The notes under the pieces were generated by a model. That model worked only from the letters and a program-made list of their open reading frames with translations, ran no database searches and had not been told where the DNA came from. Below, one piece after another: positions 16,392-62,052 of a stretch of DNA of 64,000 nucleotides. Location of the stretch: NCBI GenBank assembly GCA_003215055.1, contig QCKW01000003.1, forward strand, positions 1-64,000, read 5' to 3'. The position numbers and the translations under genes are program-made. This stretch comes from Pelagibacteraceae bacterium AG-410-N23. Lineage in GTDB: Bacteria > Pseudomonadota > Alphaproteobacteria > Pelagibacterales > Pelagibacteraceae. Each line of letters opens with the position of its first letter. Within the stretch, counting starts at the first letter, position 1.

Positions 16392-16473
16392 TACATACAA
16401 TCTATAATTTAATTCATATAAAAAGCTTATAAAAAAAGTGAGTCAAAACGAGAACATTTAATTATGAGGAATA

Positions 16474-16833
16474 TTGCCAGATAAACTATAAGCCGGGTTC
16501 TGTCATTTAAACTTATCATTTGTCTAGGCTTAAGATCACTCTTAAGCTCAAGCAACTAACCCTGATGACTAGCCAAGAATTGCTTTTAGTTTTACAACAA
16601 TGTCATCTCTACTTAGTCTTGCTCCCAGTGGGGTTTTCCAGCGTTCATTGTTACCAATAGAACCGGTGTGCTCTTACCACACCTTTTCACCCTTGCCATG
16701 TTATGGCGGTTTATTTTCTGTGGCACTATCCCTAGGGTTGCCCCCGCCAGGTGTTACCTGGCACTGTATTCTTGCAGAGTCCGGACTTTCCTCTTTAATA
16801 ATTAATCAAAGCGATAAGTCATTTATCTGGCAG
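16474..16833 (-). ncRNA. rnpB: RNase P RNA
   Basis: Minus strand GAGGAAAGTCCGGACTC near the 5' end, ACAGAACCCGGCTTATAG near the 3' end, P1 pairing CTGCCAGATAAA/TTTATCTGGCA. Ends approximate. Confidence 0.96.
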
Positions 16834-19225: not shown

Positions 19226-20665
19226 TTAATTAATTAAATATCTAGGTTCATTTCCAGTTATGCAAGATAAAATTAACCTAAGTGTATTAACATTATGAAA
19301 ATTAACATCATTTGTTAACTTACAATCATTTATTTTTATAAGATTAAAAATTTTTTTTTTATCTTGTTCATGATTTTTAGACAATTTCCAATTATGATCA
19401 CTTTGAAAAATTACAATTGCATTAGGATCAAACTTTGCAAGATAATTTATCAAGTTTTCTACTCTTTTTAAAACACATAAATATGACGACTCATACCCTT
19501 TTAAATTTTTTTCTCCCTCATAGAATTTATAAGAACAATCTTTATTAGTAACGTATGGCCAGTGAGGAGACATATGATGTATGAAATAAAAAGTAGCTTT
19601 ATCATTAAAATTATCACTCTTTTCTAAATGATTAATCAATCTTCCTATTCCATTATTTAATTTGAAAAAAAAATTTTTGTTATAATCAAAATTAAATATA
19701 TGTCCAAAGTTTATTATTGTTTGAATTAAAGGTGTTTGTCGAAAAAAATTTATATATAAGTAAGTATCTATTATTGGATTTTTTTTTTTATCTAAACAAT
19801 ATTTTAAATTATATTTTGGACAATAAGCAAAAAAATTTCCAATCCACTTAAAATCATATCCAAGATTATCAAGGTTATATATAAGATCTGGTTTAAATTT
19901 ACTCCTCATAACCACTGGAAAAGGAATTTTAGAACTTTTTTCAGATACATTATTTAAATAAAACATAGAGGATAGGCTATAAGTAGTATTGCTATGGAGA
20001 CTTTCGGTCCCTTCGATATACAAAAAACCTTTCTTTTTAACATTTTGCAAATAGTCTTGTAAATTTTTTTTATAAAATTTTTCAAAATCCTCAATGGGTT
20101 GCATTCCATCTAAAATTAAATAATAAATATTATTTTTTTTTAATTTAAGGTTATCTTCAAAAATTATTTCAGGAGTATAAATATCTTTTTCTTTAACTAT
20201 TTTTTCATAATTTATTATTTGGAATATCGTAAATAGAAAAGATAAAGAGAAAAAAAGAAAAAAAAATCTTAATAAAAAAATATTTTTCTTTAAAATGTAA
20301 ATTGAAAAAAAAATTATAAATAAAATAAGAATGGCTAAACTTAATTCTGAAGAAATTTTCACAACAAAATCATCATTATTAAACAAATTATTTATGTATA
20401 ATTTTAAAAAATTGTGATTAAAGAGAAGCCAGAAAATTAATGTACTAACTAATATTTTATCAAGTAAATTTTTTTTTAAATTAAATCGGTTTAATATTAC
20501 CGAAAAAAAAATGACGAAAATTGCTAGAAAAAAAATTAAGTAATAAAAGCTTTTTCCAATAACAACATCTATTTCCTGTATATTATTTAGGATAAACTGT
20601 ATAAAAGGCAAACTAAAAATAATTATTGATAAATATAATGTTTTTAAATTATTTTTGATTTCCAT
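19226..20665 (-). CDS. Membrane-anchored sulfatase / alkaline-phosphatase-superfamily protein
   Basis: About five N-terminal TM helices, then periplasmic domain with YYLILDGMQP, HHMSPHWPY, VIFQSDHNW. Confidence 0.65.
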   Translation of the reverse strand: MEIKNNLKTLYLSIIIFSLPFIQFILNNIQEIDVVIGKSFYYLIFFLAIFVIFFSVILNRFNLKKNLLDKILVSTLIFWLLFNHNFLKLYINNLFNNDDFVVKISSELSLAILILFIIFFSIYILKKNIFLLRFFFLFFSLSFLFTIFQIINYEKIVKEKDIYTPEIIFEDNLKLKKNNIYYLILDGMQPIEDFEKFYKKNLQDYLQNVKKKGFLYIEGTESLHSNTTYSLSSMFYLNNVSEKSSKIPFPVVMRSKFKPDLIYNLDNLGYDFKWIGNFFAYCPKYNLKYCLDKKKNPIIDTYLYINFFRQTPLIQTIINFGHIFNFDYNKNFFFKLNNGIGRLINHLEKSDNFNDKATFYFIHHMSPHWPYVTNKDCSYKFYEGEKNLKGYESSYLCVLKRVENLINYLAKFDPNAIVIFQSDHNWKLSKNHEQDKKKIFNLIKINDCKLTNDVNFHNVNTLRLILSCITGNEPRYLIN

Positions 20666-20740
20666 AAGTAAGAAAATTCTTATTGTGTTAATAGTATAAT
20701 ATATATAGATATTATTTATTAAAATAAATATTTTAAGCTA

Positions 20741-20968
20741 ATGATTAAAATTCTTTGTAAAATTGGTTTTGTATTTTTTTTATTAACTAGTCCAGTTTAT
20801 GCTTATCTAGATCCAGGAACTGGAAACATAATCATACAGGCTATTCTGGCCTTTATAGCGACAACAATAACAACGTTATCTTTTTACTGGACAAAAGTAA
20901 AATTATTCATACTTAAACTTTTCAAAAAAAATAAAAACGATAAAGAAAAAAATTCTGATCTTAATTAA
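20741..20968 (+). CDS. Small secreted/membrane protein with YLDPGTG motif
   Basis: 75 aa; signal peptide, AYLDPGTGNIIIQAILAF, TM, basic tail. Confidence 0.65.
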   Translation: MIKILCKIGFVFFLLTSPVYAYLDPGTGNIIIQAILAFIATTITTLSFYWTKVKLFILKLFKKNKNDKEKNSDLN

Positions 20969-20974
20969 TCACAA

Positions 20975-21049
20975 ATGGTGGGCCTTGTAGGTACTGCCCC
21001 TACTACCTTCGCAATGTCAATGCGACACTCTACTTTTGAGCTAAAGGCC
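20975..21049 (-). tRNA. tRNA-Val (GAC) with non-canonical D- and T-loops
   Basis: GGGCCTT-TA-GCTC-AAAAGTA-GAGT-G-TCGCA-TTGACAT-TGCGA-AGGTA-GTAGG-GGCAGTA-CCTAC-AAGGCCC-A-CCA; stems pair (one G-U), CCA encoded. Confidence 0.75.
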
Positions 21050-21087
21050 CGTTTATTAATTTATAAAATATTTATTAATATACATTA

Positions 21088-22314
21088 TTATTTAAATATA
21101 TTTGTCTCATAATTAGACGCATAATATAGAGAGAAATTTAACCAAAAGAAATTTGAATTAAAGTCAGCAAAAAAAGAACCCCCAGGCAGAAAGGGAATAA
21201 AAACTGTCATTAAATATGAAAAGCATCCAATTTGTATCAAATTTTTTCTTCTCATCATTACCTTAAAATTTTTAAAAATAAGATAAAAAATAATTGTTAA
21301 TATGATTAAAGTTCCAAGAAGGCCATGCTCTGATAAGAATTCAAAATAAATTTGGTGTGGATGTGTATTACAAACATAATTTTTATTTTTATTTTCAATA
21401 TTTCTACAAGCCTCAATTCTATAATTCTTATTACCAACACCTAAAATTGGATATTTTTTGAAAACCTCATAACCTGAGTTATAAAGCTTAAAATAAATAT
21501 ACCTCTCCCGACTTTCTTTATTTTTTAATTTTTGTATAAGATCGTTACTATATCTATGTTTAATTTCTGTAGAATTTAAAATTGTTAAAAAAAATACAAA
21601 AATAACTGAAAATAAAAAGAAAACTTTATAACTTAGTTTGATCTTATCATTAAAGTAGAAAAAAATTGTTAAGCCAAAAAATAATTTAAGAGTATTAGAT
21701 CTTTCACCTGTAAAAATTAAACAGCTAATTATTAAAACTAAAAATGAAAATACAAATATTTTATAAATTAAATTTTTTTTTTCATAATTAGAAAATAAAA
21801 ATCCTAATATAATAAAAATAAAGCCATTTAAAAACGCTCCAACAACAGCTTCATCTTTAAAAAAACTTACTATCCTTTTTTTATTTGGAGACTCAAATCC
21901 TAGTAAATTAGAACCAATAAAAAATTCATAAAAAACGTCAAAAAGGACTATAAAGATTATTAAAAACCAAATCTTGAAGATATTTTCAAAATTATCTAAT
22001 TTTGAAAATATAAAGTTAATAGCTAAAAATAAAAAAATATATCTTATAAAACCAAAATTTCTTGTTGCTCCTATATCGGTGTCTATTGAAATAAAATTAT
22101 TTAAAATTAAATAAATATAGATTGCTAATAAAAGAATTATGACTTTGCTTTTTAAAATGATTAATGAATTTTTATATAAATAAAAAATAATAAAACTTAA
22201 TGCTATTAAGGATATGTTAGTTAAAGAAACAGCTGGACCAACTATTATACTAATTGGTAGTATTGAAAAAAGTATTAAAAAATATACATTATTTATTTTT
22301 TCGAGTTTATTCAT
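21088..22314 (-). CDS. O-antigen ligase / Wzy-like membrane protein
   Basis: Multi-TM, YPILGVGNKNYR...THPHQIYFEFLSEHGLLGTL signature. Confidence 0.8.
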   Translation of the reverse strand: MNKLEKINNVYFLILFSILPISIIVGPAVSLTNISLIALSFIIFYLYKNSLIILKSKVIILLLAIYIYLILNNFISIDTDIGATRNFGFIRYIFLFLAINFIFSKLDNFENIFKIWFLIIFIVLFDVFYEFFIGSNLLGFESPNKKRIVSFFKDEAVVGAFLNGFIFIILGFLFSNYEKKNLIYKIFVFSFLVLIISCLIFTGERSNTLKLFFGLTIFFYFNDKIKLSYKVFFLFSVIFVFFLTILNSTEIKHRYSNDLIQKLKNKESRERYIYFKLYNSGYEVFKKYPILGVGNKNYRIEACRNIENKNKNYVCNTHPHQIYFEFLSEHGLLGTLIILTIIFYLIFKNFKVMMRRKNLIQIGCFSYLMTVFIPFLPGGSFFADFNSNFFWLNFSLYYASNYETNIFK

Positions 22315-22317
22315 CTA

Positions 22318-23013
22318 CTATTTTGCTCCACTACATATAATTCTAGAGGATTTATGAACTGAATTATTGATTGTTTTAATAATCTTAACACTATGAAATA
22401 AACTTTCAAAATATTGTGGTCTGATAGTGTCAAATATTAATGTTGTCTTATTTTTCATAATTTTTTTGAAATAATCAGAATATAATTCATAACTGTAATG
22501 ATAATCTAAAGAAAAAAGAGAAATTATAATGTCAAAATCTTCTAATGGAAATTCATCTTTATCGAAGTCAAAAATATTTATTTTTTCCTTACTTACACCA
22601 TTTTTAGTTAAAAAAATTTGTACCAGTTCAAGATCATTGTATGCTTCAGAATTTTTCAAATCCCACCCATAAACAACTTTTTCAGAAATATAATTTTTAT
22701 CAATTAGAGAGAATCTATTCACATCATTCTTTTTATTAATAATTAGCTCCAGTCCACCTATGCCAGAACCAATTGATAAAATATCTTTATTGTTAAAATC
22801 ATAATAATTAGAGATATTTTTATACTCTTCCTCCATATCATTTATATATTTTTTCCCGATTTGTTCCGGATTAATTAAATATTTTGATACAAATTTGGTA
22901 AAAAACTTTCTTCCGAATAGTTTTCTCATTCTTATAAGAAAAGAACTTGCCAAGTCTATCCTCTGAAGCAGTATTAATTGTGCTATCTTTTTGTTAATAA
23001 AAATCTTATCCAT
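22318..23013 (-). CDS. Putative class I SAM-dependent methyltransferase
   Basis: DILSIGSGIGGLELII motif I, DFDIIISLFSLDYH. Confidence 0.55.
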   Translation of the reverse strand: MDKIFINKKIAQLILLQRIDLASSFLIRMRKLFGRKFFTKFVSKYLINPEQIGKKYINDMEEEYKNISNYYDFNNKDILSIGSGIGGLELIINKKNDVNRFSLIDKNYISEKVVYGWDLKNSEAYNDLELVQIFLTKNGVSKEKINIFDFDKDEFPLEDFDIIISLFSLDYHYSYELYSDYFKKIMKNKTTLIFDTIRPQYFESLFHSVKIIKTINNSVHKSSRIICSGAK

Positions 23014-23066: not shown

Positions 23067-24893
23067 TTAGCTTTCTAAAAAGCTTTTTAATTGTTTAGAT
23101 CTACTAGGGTGTTTTAATTTTCTAAGTGCTTTTGCCTCGATTTGTCTTATACGTTCTCTAGTAACTGAAAATTGTAATCCAACCTCTTCTAAAGTGTGAT
23201 CTGTATTCATGCCAACACCAAATCTCATTCTTAAAACTCGCTCTTCTCTAGGAGTTAATGTTGATAAAATCTTTGTTGTAGCCTCACCCAAATTAGATTT
23301 AATTGCTTGCTCAAGAGGTGCTAATGCTTTTGTGTCTTCTATAAAATCTCCCAAACTACTATCTTCCTCATCGCCAACTGGTTTTTCAAGTGAAACAGGT
23401 TCTTTTGAAATTTTTAGAACTTTTCTTACTTTGTCTAATGGCATTCTTAATTTCTTAGCTAATTCCTCTGGTGTGGCTTCTCTTCCGAATTCACTTAAAA
23501 TTAATCTCTGTGTTCTAACAATTTTATTGATGGTTTCAATCATGTGAACTGGAATTCTAATCGTTCTAGCCTGATCAGCTATTGATCTTGTTATTGCCTG
23601 TCTTATCCACCAAGTTGCATATGTTGAAAATTTGTAACCTCGTCTGTATTCAAATTTATCCACTGCTTTCATTAAACCAATGTTTCCTTCTTGTATCAAA
23701 TCTAAAAACTGTAGACCTCTATTAGTATATTTTTTTGCAATTGAAATTACTAATCTTAGATTGGCTTCCACCATTTCTTTTTTTGCTAATCTTGATTCTT
23801 TTTCACCTTTTTGTATTCTGCTTACTAATTTTTTGAAATCTGTTACTGAAATTCCAAGTTTATGACTAATTTCAATTAATCTTTCTCTTATATTTTTAAA
23901 TTGGTCTTTGTTTTTAGAAAAAAAACTTTTCCAAGTCTGATTGGTATCTAAAAATTTTTTTAAGTTTGGATTTATTTCATTTCCAACATAAAACTTTATA
24001 AACTCATTTCTTGATATATTTTGATTCATTGCGAGTCTTAATAAATTTCCTTCAAGAGAAATAATTTTCTTATTTTCAACATAATGTTTCTGAACTAATT
24101 CTTCTAAAACAGACGGAGATAGTTGTAAAGATTTTATATTTTCTAATATTTCATTAACAATTTTTTCGTAATTTTTTTCTTTGGCTGTTGAAAATATTTC
24201 TGAATTTAAAATGTTTTCAAGTTTTTCTTTTTGATATTTTATTAACTTATTATAGTCTTTAGTAATATTATTTATAGTTTTTAACACTTTAGGTTTAATT
24301 TCAGTCTCCATAGCAGCAAGAGTTGGATTAAAATCATCATCAGCATCATCATTATTTCCATCTTCATTTTCTGCTTCACCAGAATTTTTTTGTTTGGCAC
24401 TTGGTCCTGTTGTCTCATCTTCCATATAATTTGTATCTATATCAATTATCTCTCTTACTAGAATTTCATCTTTTTGAAGTTTTTCATTCCATTCAAAAAA
24501 TTGTTGTGCAGTAATAGGACTTTGAGATAATGCAATTAGCATAACATCTTTTCCTGCTTCAATTCTTTTTGCAATTGCAATTTCACCTTCTCTGGAAAGT
24601 AACTCAACACCTCCCATTTCTCTGAGATACATTCTTATGGGATCATCACTTTTTTCTATTGTCTTACCTTCTTCTTTGCTTGAACCTTCTTTTTTTCTTA
24701 AAACTTTAAAATCAGTTTTTTTTTCAACTAATGTTATTTTTTCATCAAGTATGTGGATAAAAGCTTGAGCTAAGTTTTCATCTGATAGGTTTCTTTTTCC
24801 AAGAGATTTGCTTAATTCTTCATGAGTAATAAAACCCCTATGGACTCCACGTCCCATTAATCTAGCAAATGATTTAGTAATTATTCTTTCCAC
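23067..24893 (-). CDS. rpoD: RNA polymerase sigma factor RpoD (sigma70)
   Basis: [61 protein letters not shown], region 4.2. Confidence 0.98.
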
Positions 24894-43716: not shown

Positions 43717-45016
43717 ATTTATAAAAAATTTGTTACCCAAAACTTTATTTTATCGAGCATTATTAATAGTGGCTGTTCCGGTAATTGTAATTCAATTAAT
43801 TATAACTATTGTTTTTTTTGATAGCTTATGGATCAAAACTAATAAAGGTATGACTAATGCTTTAGTAAATGAATTAAATACATTTATTGAAATTTATAAT
43901 GACAATATTTATGACAAAGATGAAATCACAAACCTTTTTTCGGTCTATCAAAATTTAAATATTGAATATGTTGAGGATGAAAAATTTAATTATAGTTATG
44001 ATGACAGATGGTTTAGCCCTATCGATAGAACACTTAGAAGAGAATTAAAATCAAAGTTTAGTAACGTAAAATTTTGGTTTAATACAACAAGTTACAAAGA
44101 GTTGATTGATCTAAGAATTGAGTATGAGTTAGGATATTTCAAATTTTTAATTCCGAAAGACAGAGTTACAAGCTCCTCTGCAAGAATTTTTGCACTTTGG
44201 ATCACAGTGCCAGCATTAATAATGGTTTTTATTTCACTAATTTTTTTAAAAAATCAAACAAGACCGATAACAAGACTTGCAAAAGCAGCTGAAAAATTTG
44301 GAAGAGGAGAGGATGTTGAAGAATATAAACCATCAGGCGCTGCCGAAATTAGACAAGCTGGGTTTGAATTTGATAGAATGAGGAAAAGAATAATTAGACA
44401 TCTAAATCAAAGATCTGAAATGTTATCAGGCATAAGTCACGATTTGAGAACGCCCCTTACAAGAATGAAACTACAACTTGCATTTATTAAAGATAAAGAC
44501 CTTAGTTCAAAGTTGTCTGAAGATATCAACGAGATGGAGAAAATGCTGAATGAATATCTTCAATTCACAAGTTCCTCTTACTTAGAAAAAGATGAAAATT
44601 TTAACTTAAGTGAATTAATTGAAAATATTGTTGAAAAATATAAAAATCATAATATTTCAAAAAATATTTCTTCAGAAATTCGTATTAATGGTAGAAAGAA
44701 TTTAATCATTAGATGTATTAACAATTTACTAGATAATGCAATTAAATATGGTGAAAAAGTAAATATCGAACTATTTAAAAATAAGAATAATCTATTTATC
44801 AAAATTGAAGATGATGGGCCGGGAGTACCTGAGAATGAATATGAGAATGTTTTTAAACCATTTTATAAGATTGATAAGGGAAGAGCTGATACCAAGTCAA
44901 GTGTTGGCCTAGGTCTGTCTATAACATCTGATATTATAAGATCACACGGTGGAAATATAAAATTAGAAAAATCACCCTTAGGTGGTTTAGGGGTTAAGAT
45001 TTTCTTGCCCGCTTAA
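43697..45016 (+). CDS. Sensor histidine kinase (EnvZ-like)
   Basis: TM-periplasmic-TM-HAMP, GISHDLRTPLTRMKLQL, DNAIKYGE, VGLGLSI. Confidence 0.93.
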   Translation: MFYGLNKFIKNLLPKTLFYRALLIVAVPVIVIQLIITIVFFDSLWIKTNKGMTNALVNELNTFIEIYNDNIYDKDEITNLFSVYQNLNIEYVEDEKFNYSYDDRWFSPIDRTLRRELKSKFSNVKFWFNTTSYKELIDLRIEYELGYFKFLIPKDRVTSSSARIFALWITVPALIMVFISLIFLKNQTRPITRLAKAAEKFGRGEDVEEYKPSGAAEIRQAGFEFDRMRKRIIRHLNQRSEMLSGISHDLRTPLTRMKLQLAFIKDKDLSSKLSEDINEMEKMLNEYLQFTSSSYLEKDENFNLSELIENIVEKYKNHNISKNISSEIRINGRKNLIIRCINNLLDNAIKYGEKVNIELFKNKNNLFIKIEDDGPGVPENEYENVFKPFYKIDKGRADTKSSVGLGLSITSDIIRSHGGNIKLEKSPLGGLGVKIFLPA

Positions 45017-45245
45017 TTTTTATTTTTTTTCGATTTTTAATCTGTTCTAGTTTTTTTTCTAGATTTTCAACTCTTTTAGATAAAATTTCGAATTCATCTT
45101 TACTTGTAATTTTCATTCTAAAAATAACTTCGTCTCTTTTTGATTTTAAAATACTCATCAATTCTTCAGTAAGATCTTTTGATGAGATTAACCCTTGCTC
45201 AATTAATTTTGACATCTTTTCAATAATAAATTTTGAATTTTTCAT
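44994..45245 (-). CDS. UbiK/YqiC-like BMFP-domain accessory protein
   Basis: Coiled-coil LKSKRDEVIFRMKITSKDEFEILSKRVENLEKKL. Confidence 0.65.
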   Translation of the reverse strand: MKNSKFIIEKMSKLIEQGLISSKDLTEELMSILKSKRDEVIFRMKITSKDEFEILSKRVENLEKKLEQIKNRKKIKIKRARKS

Positions 45246-45295
45246 ATATTTATTTATTAAGTTATTATAAATTGAATTTATAACTATATCAAAAA

Positions 45296-46070
45296 ATGTT
45301 CATTAATAATTTTGACCCAGTTGCTCTCCAAATTTTCTCTTTTGAAATAAGATGGTATTCTTTAGCTTATGTCATTGGGATATTGTCTGGGTGGATTGTT
45401 GGAAAAAGATTTTTTATTACTAATCCGGTCTTAAAACAAACATTTGATGATTTTATCACTTATTCAATACTAGCTATAATTTTAGGAGGAAGGCTTGGAT
45501 ATGTATTATTATACAATCCAAAATATTATTTTTATAACTTCTTAGATATTTTCAAAATTTGGGAAGGCGGAATGTCTTTTCACGGGGGCTTAATTGGAGT
45601 TATTCTAGCCAGCATAATATTTGCAAAAAAAAATAATCAAAACCCATACAATTACCTTGATGTTGTTTCAATAGTAGCACCAATAGGGATTTTTTTTGGA
45701 AGAATAGCAAATTTTATAAATTCTGAACTTTATGGTCATGAAACTAATTTACCATGGTCAGTAAAATTTATTCAAATAGATAATTTAAATAGACATCCTT
45801 CTCAACTTTATGAGGCAATTTTTTGAAGGATTAATATTATTTTTAATTTTGATATATTTTAGGAAAAAAGGATTTATGAAAATACCAGGATTAATCTCAA
45901 GCCTTTTTTTAATTTTTTACTCATTTTTCAGATTTGTAATTGAATTTTTTAGAGTACCAGATGAGCAACTAGGTTATTTATTTTTTAATCTTTCCATGGG
46001 TCAAATTATGAGTCTGACATTCTTTATTACTGGAATTTATTTGATGAAAAAAAATTATGAAATTAAGTAA
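45296..46070 (+). CDS. lgt: Prolipoprotein diacylglyceryl transferase, frameshifted in T6 run 45819-45824
   Basis: ORF1 ends RHPSQLYEAIF*, ORF2 continues FEGLILFLILIYF...FRVPDEQLG; one extra T. Confidence 0.92.
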
Positions 46071-60863: not shown

Positions 60864-60939
60864 GTTCCACGTAGAAACACAATATATAGTTATCTAAAAA
60901 AAACCTTACACAAATCGATCTAATTAATTCAATCGTAGG

Positions 60940-60968
60940 TTGACCTAAGAATTCTAATGGAGTCTAAT
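60940..60968 (+). promoter_or_regulatory. Putative ccrM promoter TTGACC-17-TCTAAT with GANTC (GAGTC, 60960-60964) overlapping the -10
   Basis: Element spacing read directly; ATG at 60982 leaves about 7 nt of leader. Confidence 0.5.
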
Positions 60969-60981
60969 TTGTTTTTATAAA

Positions 60982-62052
60982 ATGATTTTAGATCTAAAAA
61001 ATAAATTAGTTAATGGAGACAGTTTAAAAGAACTAAAAAAAATTCCTGACGAAACATTTGATTTAATTTTTGCTGACCCTCCCTACAACTTACAATTAAA
61101 AAGTGAATTAACCAGACCTGACAGATCCAAGGTTAGTGCAGTAAACGATAAATGGGATCAATTTGAAAATTTTAAAAAATATGATGATTTCACCTACTCA
61201 TGGTTAAGAGAGTGCAAAAGAGTTTTAAAAAAAAACGGTGCTATTTGGGTTATTGGAAGTTATCACAATATTTTCAGAGTTGGTACGACAATTCAGAATT
61301 TGGGTTTTTGGATTTTGAATGATGTCATATGGAATAAAAAAAATCCTATGCCAAATTTCAGGGGGACACGTTTTACCAATGCGCATGAAACTTTGATTTG
61401 GGCTTCAAAATCTGAAAAATCAAAATACACTTTTAACTATCAGTCTTTAAAATGTTTAAATGATGACCTTCAAATGAGATCTAACTGGGAATTACCAATT
61501 TGCAACGGCTCAGAGAGGCTTAAAAAAAATGGCAAAAAAGTTCATTCTACCCAAAAACCAGAGGCTCTACTTCACAGAATTTTATTAGCAACTTCAAATA
61601 AAAATGATTTAGTTTTAGACCCTTTTTTGGGATCTGGGACTACAGCAACAGTTGCAAAAAAATTGGGTAGAAATTATTACGGAATTGAAAAAGAAAAAAC
61701 CTATTTTAAAGCTGCAGAACAAAGAATAAAAAAAACAATACCTATAGAAGATGATTATTTAGATACTTTGCAAAATGGGAGATCTAAGCCAAGAATACCT
61801 TTTGGCTCATTGGTTGAATTAGGAATAATTAAACCAGGCACTACTATTTTTGACAATAAGAGGAAAATCAGTGCAAAAATTATGGCTGATGGCAGTATCA
61901 AACATGCTCAAACTGAAGGCTCAATCCATAAAGTAGCAGCTACAATCTTAGGTGCTGAAAGCTGTAATGGATGGACCTATTGGCATTATAATTTGAATGG
62001 AAACGTAGTTCCTATCGATCATTTAAGGCAAAGGTTGATTTCTAATAGTTAG
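60982..62052 (+). CDS. ccrM: CcrM-type adenine DNA methyltransferase (GANTC specificity inferred)
   Basis: [44 protein letters not shown]-terminal RAMA-like domain. Confidence 0.93.

Follow-up and report, generated by a model that had tools for sequence, protein, structure and literature searches.

Few RNA tertiary motifs are as conserved as the elbow of tRNA, and the Pelagibacter tRNA-Val(GAC) described here shows that such a joint can be rebuilt. Altered loops on intact stems are familiar from the non-proteinogenic tRNA-Gly of staphylococci, which are extra copies beside the decoding tRNA-Gly; in contrast, the altered tRNA-Val is the only GAC tRNA. In the canonical elbow, the T-loop sandwiches residue 18, which contacts residue 55; the 54-58 pair closes the loop and 19-56 forms the outer platform (PMC4810234, PMC7912444). 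Rapid translocation was reported to require the 18-55 pair (Pan et al. 2006, as cited in PMC4810234). Eukaryotic tRNA-Ala(AGC), a decoding tRNA, has R15/A48 and A54/A58 pairs with a purine at 60, pairs that are reported as unobserved in the tRNAs of bacteria or archaea (PMC7566577). The altered tRNA-Val resembles it in uniting a purine-purine 15-48 pair (A15/A48) with purines at 54 and 60, but 18-55 is changed too and position 58 is U or G, not m1A. The eukaryotic initiator tRNA likewise has an altered 54-58 pair (A54-A58) in a ribosomal tRNA, although this concerns the initiator only and, going by the review, its 18-55 pair is the usual one (PMC7912444). Finally, tRNA-Pyl and metazoan mitochondrial type II tRNAs also do without the G18-G19/TPsiC motif pair (PMC7609411); in those tRNAs a small or variable D-loop goes with an elbow that is rebuilt or altogether lost, whereas the altered tRNA-Val keeps its loop sizes and G19-C56. 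With the canonical bacterial tRNA-Val(GAC) it shares the cloverleaf, the GAC anticodon, U8, A14, G19, C56 and the encoded CCA, and it differs by G18 to A, U54 to A or G, U55 to G, A58 to U or G, R15-Y48 to A15.A48 and Y60 to A, with the m5U54 and Psi55 sites absent.

The gene lies in a 64,000-nucleotide stretch of contig QCKW01000003.1 of Pelagibacteraceae bacterium AG-410-N23, analysed as a whole and called the window below (Table 1). It is 75 nt long and is read from 21050 down to 20976. The initial annotation had placed it at 20975-21049 on the minus strand, which was the right strand and one base off in position; its full cloverleaf, GAC anticodon, encoded CCA and loops are borne out by the sequence and by the covariance scoring that it had proposed. 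Indeed, the Rfam tRNA model (RF00005) matches 20979-21050 with 52.3 bits (E 2.3e-8), well above the gathering score of 29. From 5' to 3', the gene parses as GGGCCTT, TA, GCTC, AAAAGTA, GAGT, G, TCGCA, TTGACAT, TGCGA, AGGTA, GTAGG, GGCAGTA, CCTAC, AAGGCCC and ACCA, with every stem paired. The D-loop is numbered A14 A15 A16 A18 G19 U20 A21 and the T-loop G54 G55 C56 A57 G58 U59 A60, so that G18, U54, U55 and A58 are replaced by A, G, G and G while G19-C56 is retained, as the initial annotation had read it. Only G19 and C56 survive of the canonical elbow (G18 G19 with TTCRANY), which is usual and not strictly defining for elongator tRNAs, and the Levitt pair is likewise unusual (A15.A48). With G55, the T-loop also departs from the TruB substrate motif GUUYRANYC.

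Table 1. Features at the tRNA-Val(GAC) locus, in window coordinates.
Feature	Position	Strand	Basis and remarks
rpoD	23067..24893	-	ORF; directly upstream of tRNA-Val in related genomes G012, G102, G134, G053
Two genes, O-antigen-ligase-like and methyltransferase-like (by reading only)	21088..23013	-	ORFs; between rpoD and tRNA-Val in the window species
tRNA-Val(GAC) gene including encoded CCA, with rewired elbow	20976..21050	-	Rfam RF00005 (52.3 bits), sequence, homologues in genus
D-loop AAAAGTA	21031..21037	-	A18 for G18, A15 for G15, G19 retained; genus consensus AATAGTA, sister family AGTGGTA
Anticodon GAC in loop TTGACAT	21016..21018	-	Sequence
Variable loop AGGTA	21004..21008	-	A48 facing A15; both invariant in 16 distinct altered Val sequences
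T-loop GGCAGTA	20992..20998	-	Departs from canonical TTCRANY; genus consensus AGCGTAA, sister family TTCGATC

Because fold energy is not decisive by itself (the minimum-energy fold is the cloverleaf, z = -1.9, computed on the interval shifted by one base), the reality of the tRNA rests on the covariance-model score and on comparative evidence. A family-specific pattern had a single match in the window and none in 100 shuffles. ARAGORN made no call for the window gene, yet it calls the genus-type version in other genomes; pipelines built on it could therefore overlook such tRNAs, and gene finders in general can miss tRNAs with altered elbows.

The rewired elbow is not peculiar to one genome. 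A Val(GAC) pattern blind to the elbow found a match in 98 of 121 Pelagibacter genomes, and 96 of these 98 carry A18/G55, the other two (G053 and G134) having G18/U55. Nearly all of the 96 show the two genus consensus loops of Table 1; the T-loop GGCAGTA was found exactly in one genome only, that of the window species. By BLAST, relatives of the window gene in the genus are ~77-81% identical. Altered Val(GAC) genes also occur in the family genera g228, g229, g234 and g236, and the sister family (f2) is canonical in both loops. Among 290 genomes of the class, a looser A18/G55 pattern, which sees GCTC D-stems and no others, matched only the two genus members. A pattern search of a wider set of contigs returned at least 120 loci, and the matches listed were all titled Pelagibacteraceae or Pelagibacterales.

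Of the 17 stem pairs, 12 have undergone double, compensatory changes among the 16 distinct altered Val sequences, and none of the 272 pair cells is unpaired, as expected of an elongator tRNA whose stems are under selection. Positions 8, 14, 15, 48, 55, 56 and 60 are invariant in the same set (A15, A48, G55, C56 and A60 among them), and A18 is constant in the D-loops listed. Such compensatory changes and invariant elbow positions are the mark of a working tRNA and not of decay. A decaying pseudogene, or an assembly or sequencing error, might have been suspected from a T-loop seen in a single genome and from a score below that of most other tRNAs. However, all stems pair, both sides of several tertiary pairs have changed together, and some 95 further genomes combine this kind of elbow with compensating stems; neither broken stems nor a lack of conservation was found. 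The genus survey rules this explanation out for the family, and even for the window copy we hold it to be barely credible. The orthologue comparison that the initial annotation had suggested thus went in favour of its own argument from stem integrity: orthologues with canonical loops beside a copy with stem mutations would have told against it, and canonical loops occur in only 2 of 98 genomes, with no stem mutation in the window copy.

Of the two roles that the initial annotation had left open, a structurally novel decoding tRNA or a non-ribosomal one, the first is supported by the genus-wide elbow, the compensatory stem evolution and the recurrence of the change in other isoacceptors. The suggested tRNA-Val count, made on a complete relative (G012, 32 tRNAs), gave one Val(GAC) and one Val(UAC), and no canonical duplicate accompanied the single GAC gene in any genome searched. 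GUU and GUC, its cognate codons, make up 406 of 699 Val codons (58%) in the long ORFs of the window. Together, the single gene in G012 and this codon share make decoding the most likely role of the tRNA. A non-ribosomal job akin to that of the staphylococcal tRNA-Gly in cell-wall synthesis would fit the altered T- and D-loops, and Val(UAC) could in principle cover the valine codon box. In fact, the Ala and Pro boxes of G012 are apparently served by one UNN tRNA each, so Val(UAC) might read GUU and GUC too, and a need for tRNA-Val(GAC) in decoding is not proven. Nevertheless, no GAC gene stands as an extra copy beside a canonical isoacceptor of the same anticodon, G19-C56 is kept, and the same exchange is found in tRNA-Thr and in tRNA-Phe, -His and -Tyr, the last three of which lack another isoacceptor that could decode in their place. 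We dismiss the non-ribosomal role on copy number and on this recurrence, and regard it as very improbable. Selection for escape from an enemy, either a mobile-element integrase acting at the T-arm or a phage tRNase, is also improbable, if somewhat less so. The DNA 3' of the gene varies between species and contains inserted genes, which makes the locus an insertion place, but the exchange also hits tRNAs at other places, and none of 50,697 phage records matched the tRNA region, a result on which we also set aside a pelagiphage attachment site at tRNA-Val. The reading we hold with high confidence is that this is the sole and normal tRNA-Val(GAC), which translates GUU and GUC with an elbow rebuilt by coupled substitutions; we infer that it is charged, binds EF-Tu and decodes.

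How would such an elbow be built? We propose that A18.G55 stands in for G18.Psi55, with a pair geometry that is predicted in its details. GNR-type turns can begin with G55, as UNR turns do with U55, and the purine G55 would accordingly open the T-loop turn as G55-C56-R57 (GNR-like) in place of U55-C56-R57. Likewise, the reverse-Hoogsteen pair T54.A58 would give way to A54.U58 in the genus, or to G54.G58 in the window species, and the Levitt pair R15-Y48 to A15.A48. Val retains the outer G19-C56, a stacking platform for the ribosome, RNase P and other partners; the L-shape and its outer face would thereby be preserved, while neither m5U54 nor Psi55 can form. This scheme is derived from the canonical elbow (PMC4810234, PMC7912444). 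The initial annotation was therefore right that the usual modification sites at 54 and 55 are lost, but the 18-55 and 54-58 contacts that it took to be gone appear replaced, since each pair co-changes.

This coupling extends beyond valine. We gathered 137 distinct tRNA sequences, which share ancestry and are not independent. The 28 that carry G55 have A18 without exception, and the other 109, with U55, all have G18. Two sequences flagged by the automatic D-loop test were settled by eye, one being an A18 sequence with GG in its D-stem and the other a Thr tRNA with G18-U19. The pair 54-58 also co-changes in this set, as T.A, A.T or G.G. Besides Val, the exchange of G18.U55 for A18.G55 was found in tRNA-Phe, -Thr(GGU), -His and -Tyr of the family. 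Some species have a canonical tRNA-Phe (D-loop AGTTGGTA, T-loop TTCGAGT) and others a swapped one (D-loop AGGAGTA or AGTAGTA, T-loop TGCGAAT or TGCGATT). The tRNA-Thr(GGU) is swapped in G012, G009, G016, G017 and G022, has G54/G58 in G000, G014, G015 and G019, and U19/A56 in G004 and G134; tRNA-His is swapped in G001 and G003, and tRNA-Tyr in G463 (L350), of a truB-positive genus. An RF00005 search of nine genomes gave at least 150 matches, and weak-scoring tRNAs were not among the matches listed.

At two tRNA-Thr(GGU) loci (L258 and L262), the D-loop TAATGTTA with T-loop TTAGATT reads as U19-A56 replacing G19-C56. As the initial annotation had said, the loops of the window's other two tRNAs are ordinary. 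Elsewhere in the same genome, tRNA-Thr(GGU) (contig 9, L089) has the altered T-loop GTCAGTA (G54, G58), exchanged at 54-58 just as in the window tRNA-Val, beside an ordinary G18/U55. The tRNA-Phe(GAA) (contig 9, L080) is very different: its loops are canonical, it lacks a complete encoded CCA, and it occupies the place at which relatives carry the A18/G55 version.

On balance we favour the view that G18.U55 and A18.G55 are interchangeable matched states of this universal pair within one bacterial family, an alternative elbow code that switches between them in five or more isoacceptors (Val, Phe, Thr, His and Tyr). On this view, 54-58 and 19-56 are exchanged in parallel, the tRNAs decode with full function, and the switching mostly followed loss of the Psi55 synthase. 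Gene conversion between tRNA genes could possibly have carried a swapped D-arm among isoacceptors; given this and the shared ancestry, at least one independent event per isoacceptor can be counted only if conversion is excluded. We found no earlier description of the G18.U55 to A18.G55 exchange in the open-access literature searched, and one may exist elsewhere. The main text of a SAR11 tRNA-signature study is silent on the T-loop and elbow, and tRNAs with unusual secondary structure were removed there (PMC3937112). Some of Earth's most abundant bacteria supply here a natural series of swapped and unswapped orthologues, with which one can ask which elbow contacts are needed by translation, RNase P and tRNA-modifying enzymes, and whether loss of Psi55 frees the elbow to evolve.

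Regarding this last question, loss of TruB may have freed U55 from constraint, after which elbows drifted via compensatory pairs. TruB (TIGR00431) is absent from all nine Pelagibacter genomes searched, including that of the window, and present in G234 (same family) and G025 (another family), with controls found in 14/14. Consistently, in a comparison that took in 36 genomes, rbfA abuts rpsO without truB in between in Pelagibacter (g1) and in eight further genera of the family. A tree of IF2, RbfA, RpsO and PNP groups the truB-less genera in a single clade (bootstrap 92), with one loss accounting for the missing truB. However, the genus g236 keeps truB and yet has an altered Val(GAC) and an A18/G55 tRNA-Tyr (G463), and the number of altered tRNAs, two in G463 (read over 1.20 of 1.28 Mb) against three in G012, is too small a contrast. 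The truB-positive g236 rules out TruB loss as the sole cause and makes it not required and at most permissive, and we consider an origin of the exchange in this loss doubtful. TruB loss is context for the elbow change and not its proven cause, though it may have eased it. In the window's own genome (G000), the rbfA-truB-rpsO operon without truB lies on contig 6 at 44982-45587.

Since rpoD adjoins tRNA-Val in G012, G102, G134 and G053, the orthologous locus is fixed, and the canonical-loop genomes G053 and G134 have their tRNA-Val at this same place behind rpoD. Neither of the two genes that separate rpoD from tRNA-Val in the window species was found between them in these four genomes. The flanking genes at 19226-23013 of the window (ligase-like, methyltransferase-like and sulfatase-like) vary by species, and the region looks like a cargo-insertion site next to rpoD. 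An RNase P RNA (class A, 285.7 bits) lies 4 kb from tRNA-Val at 16473-16830 on the minus strand, and a match to the bablM sRNA (66.2 bits) at 60916-60985 on the plus strand.
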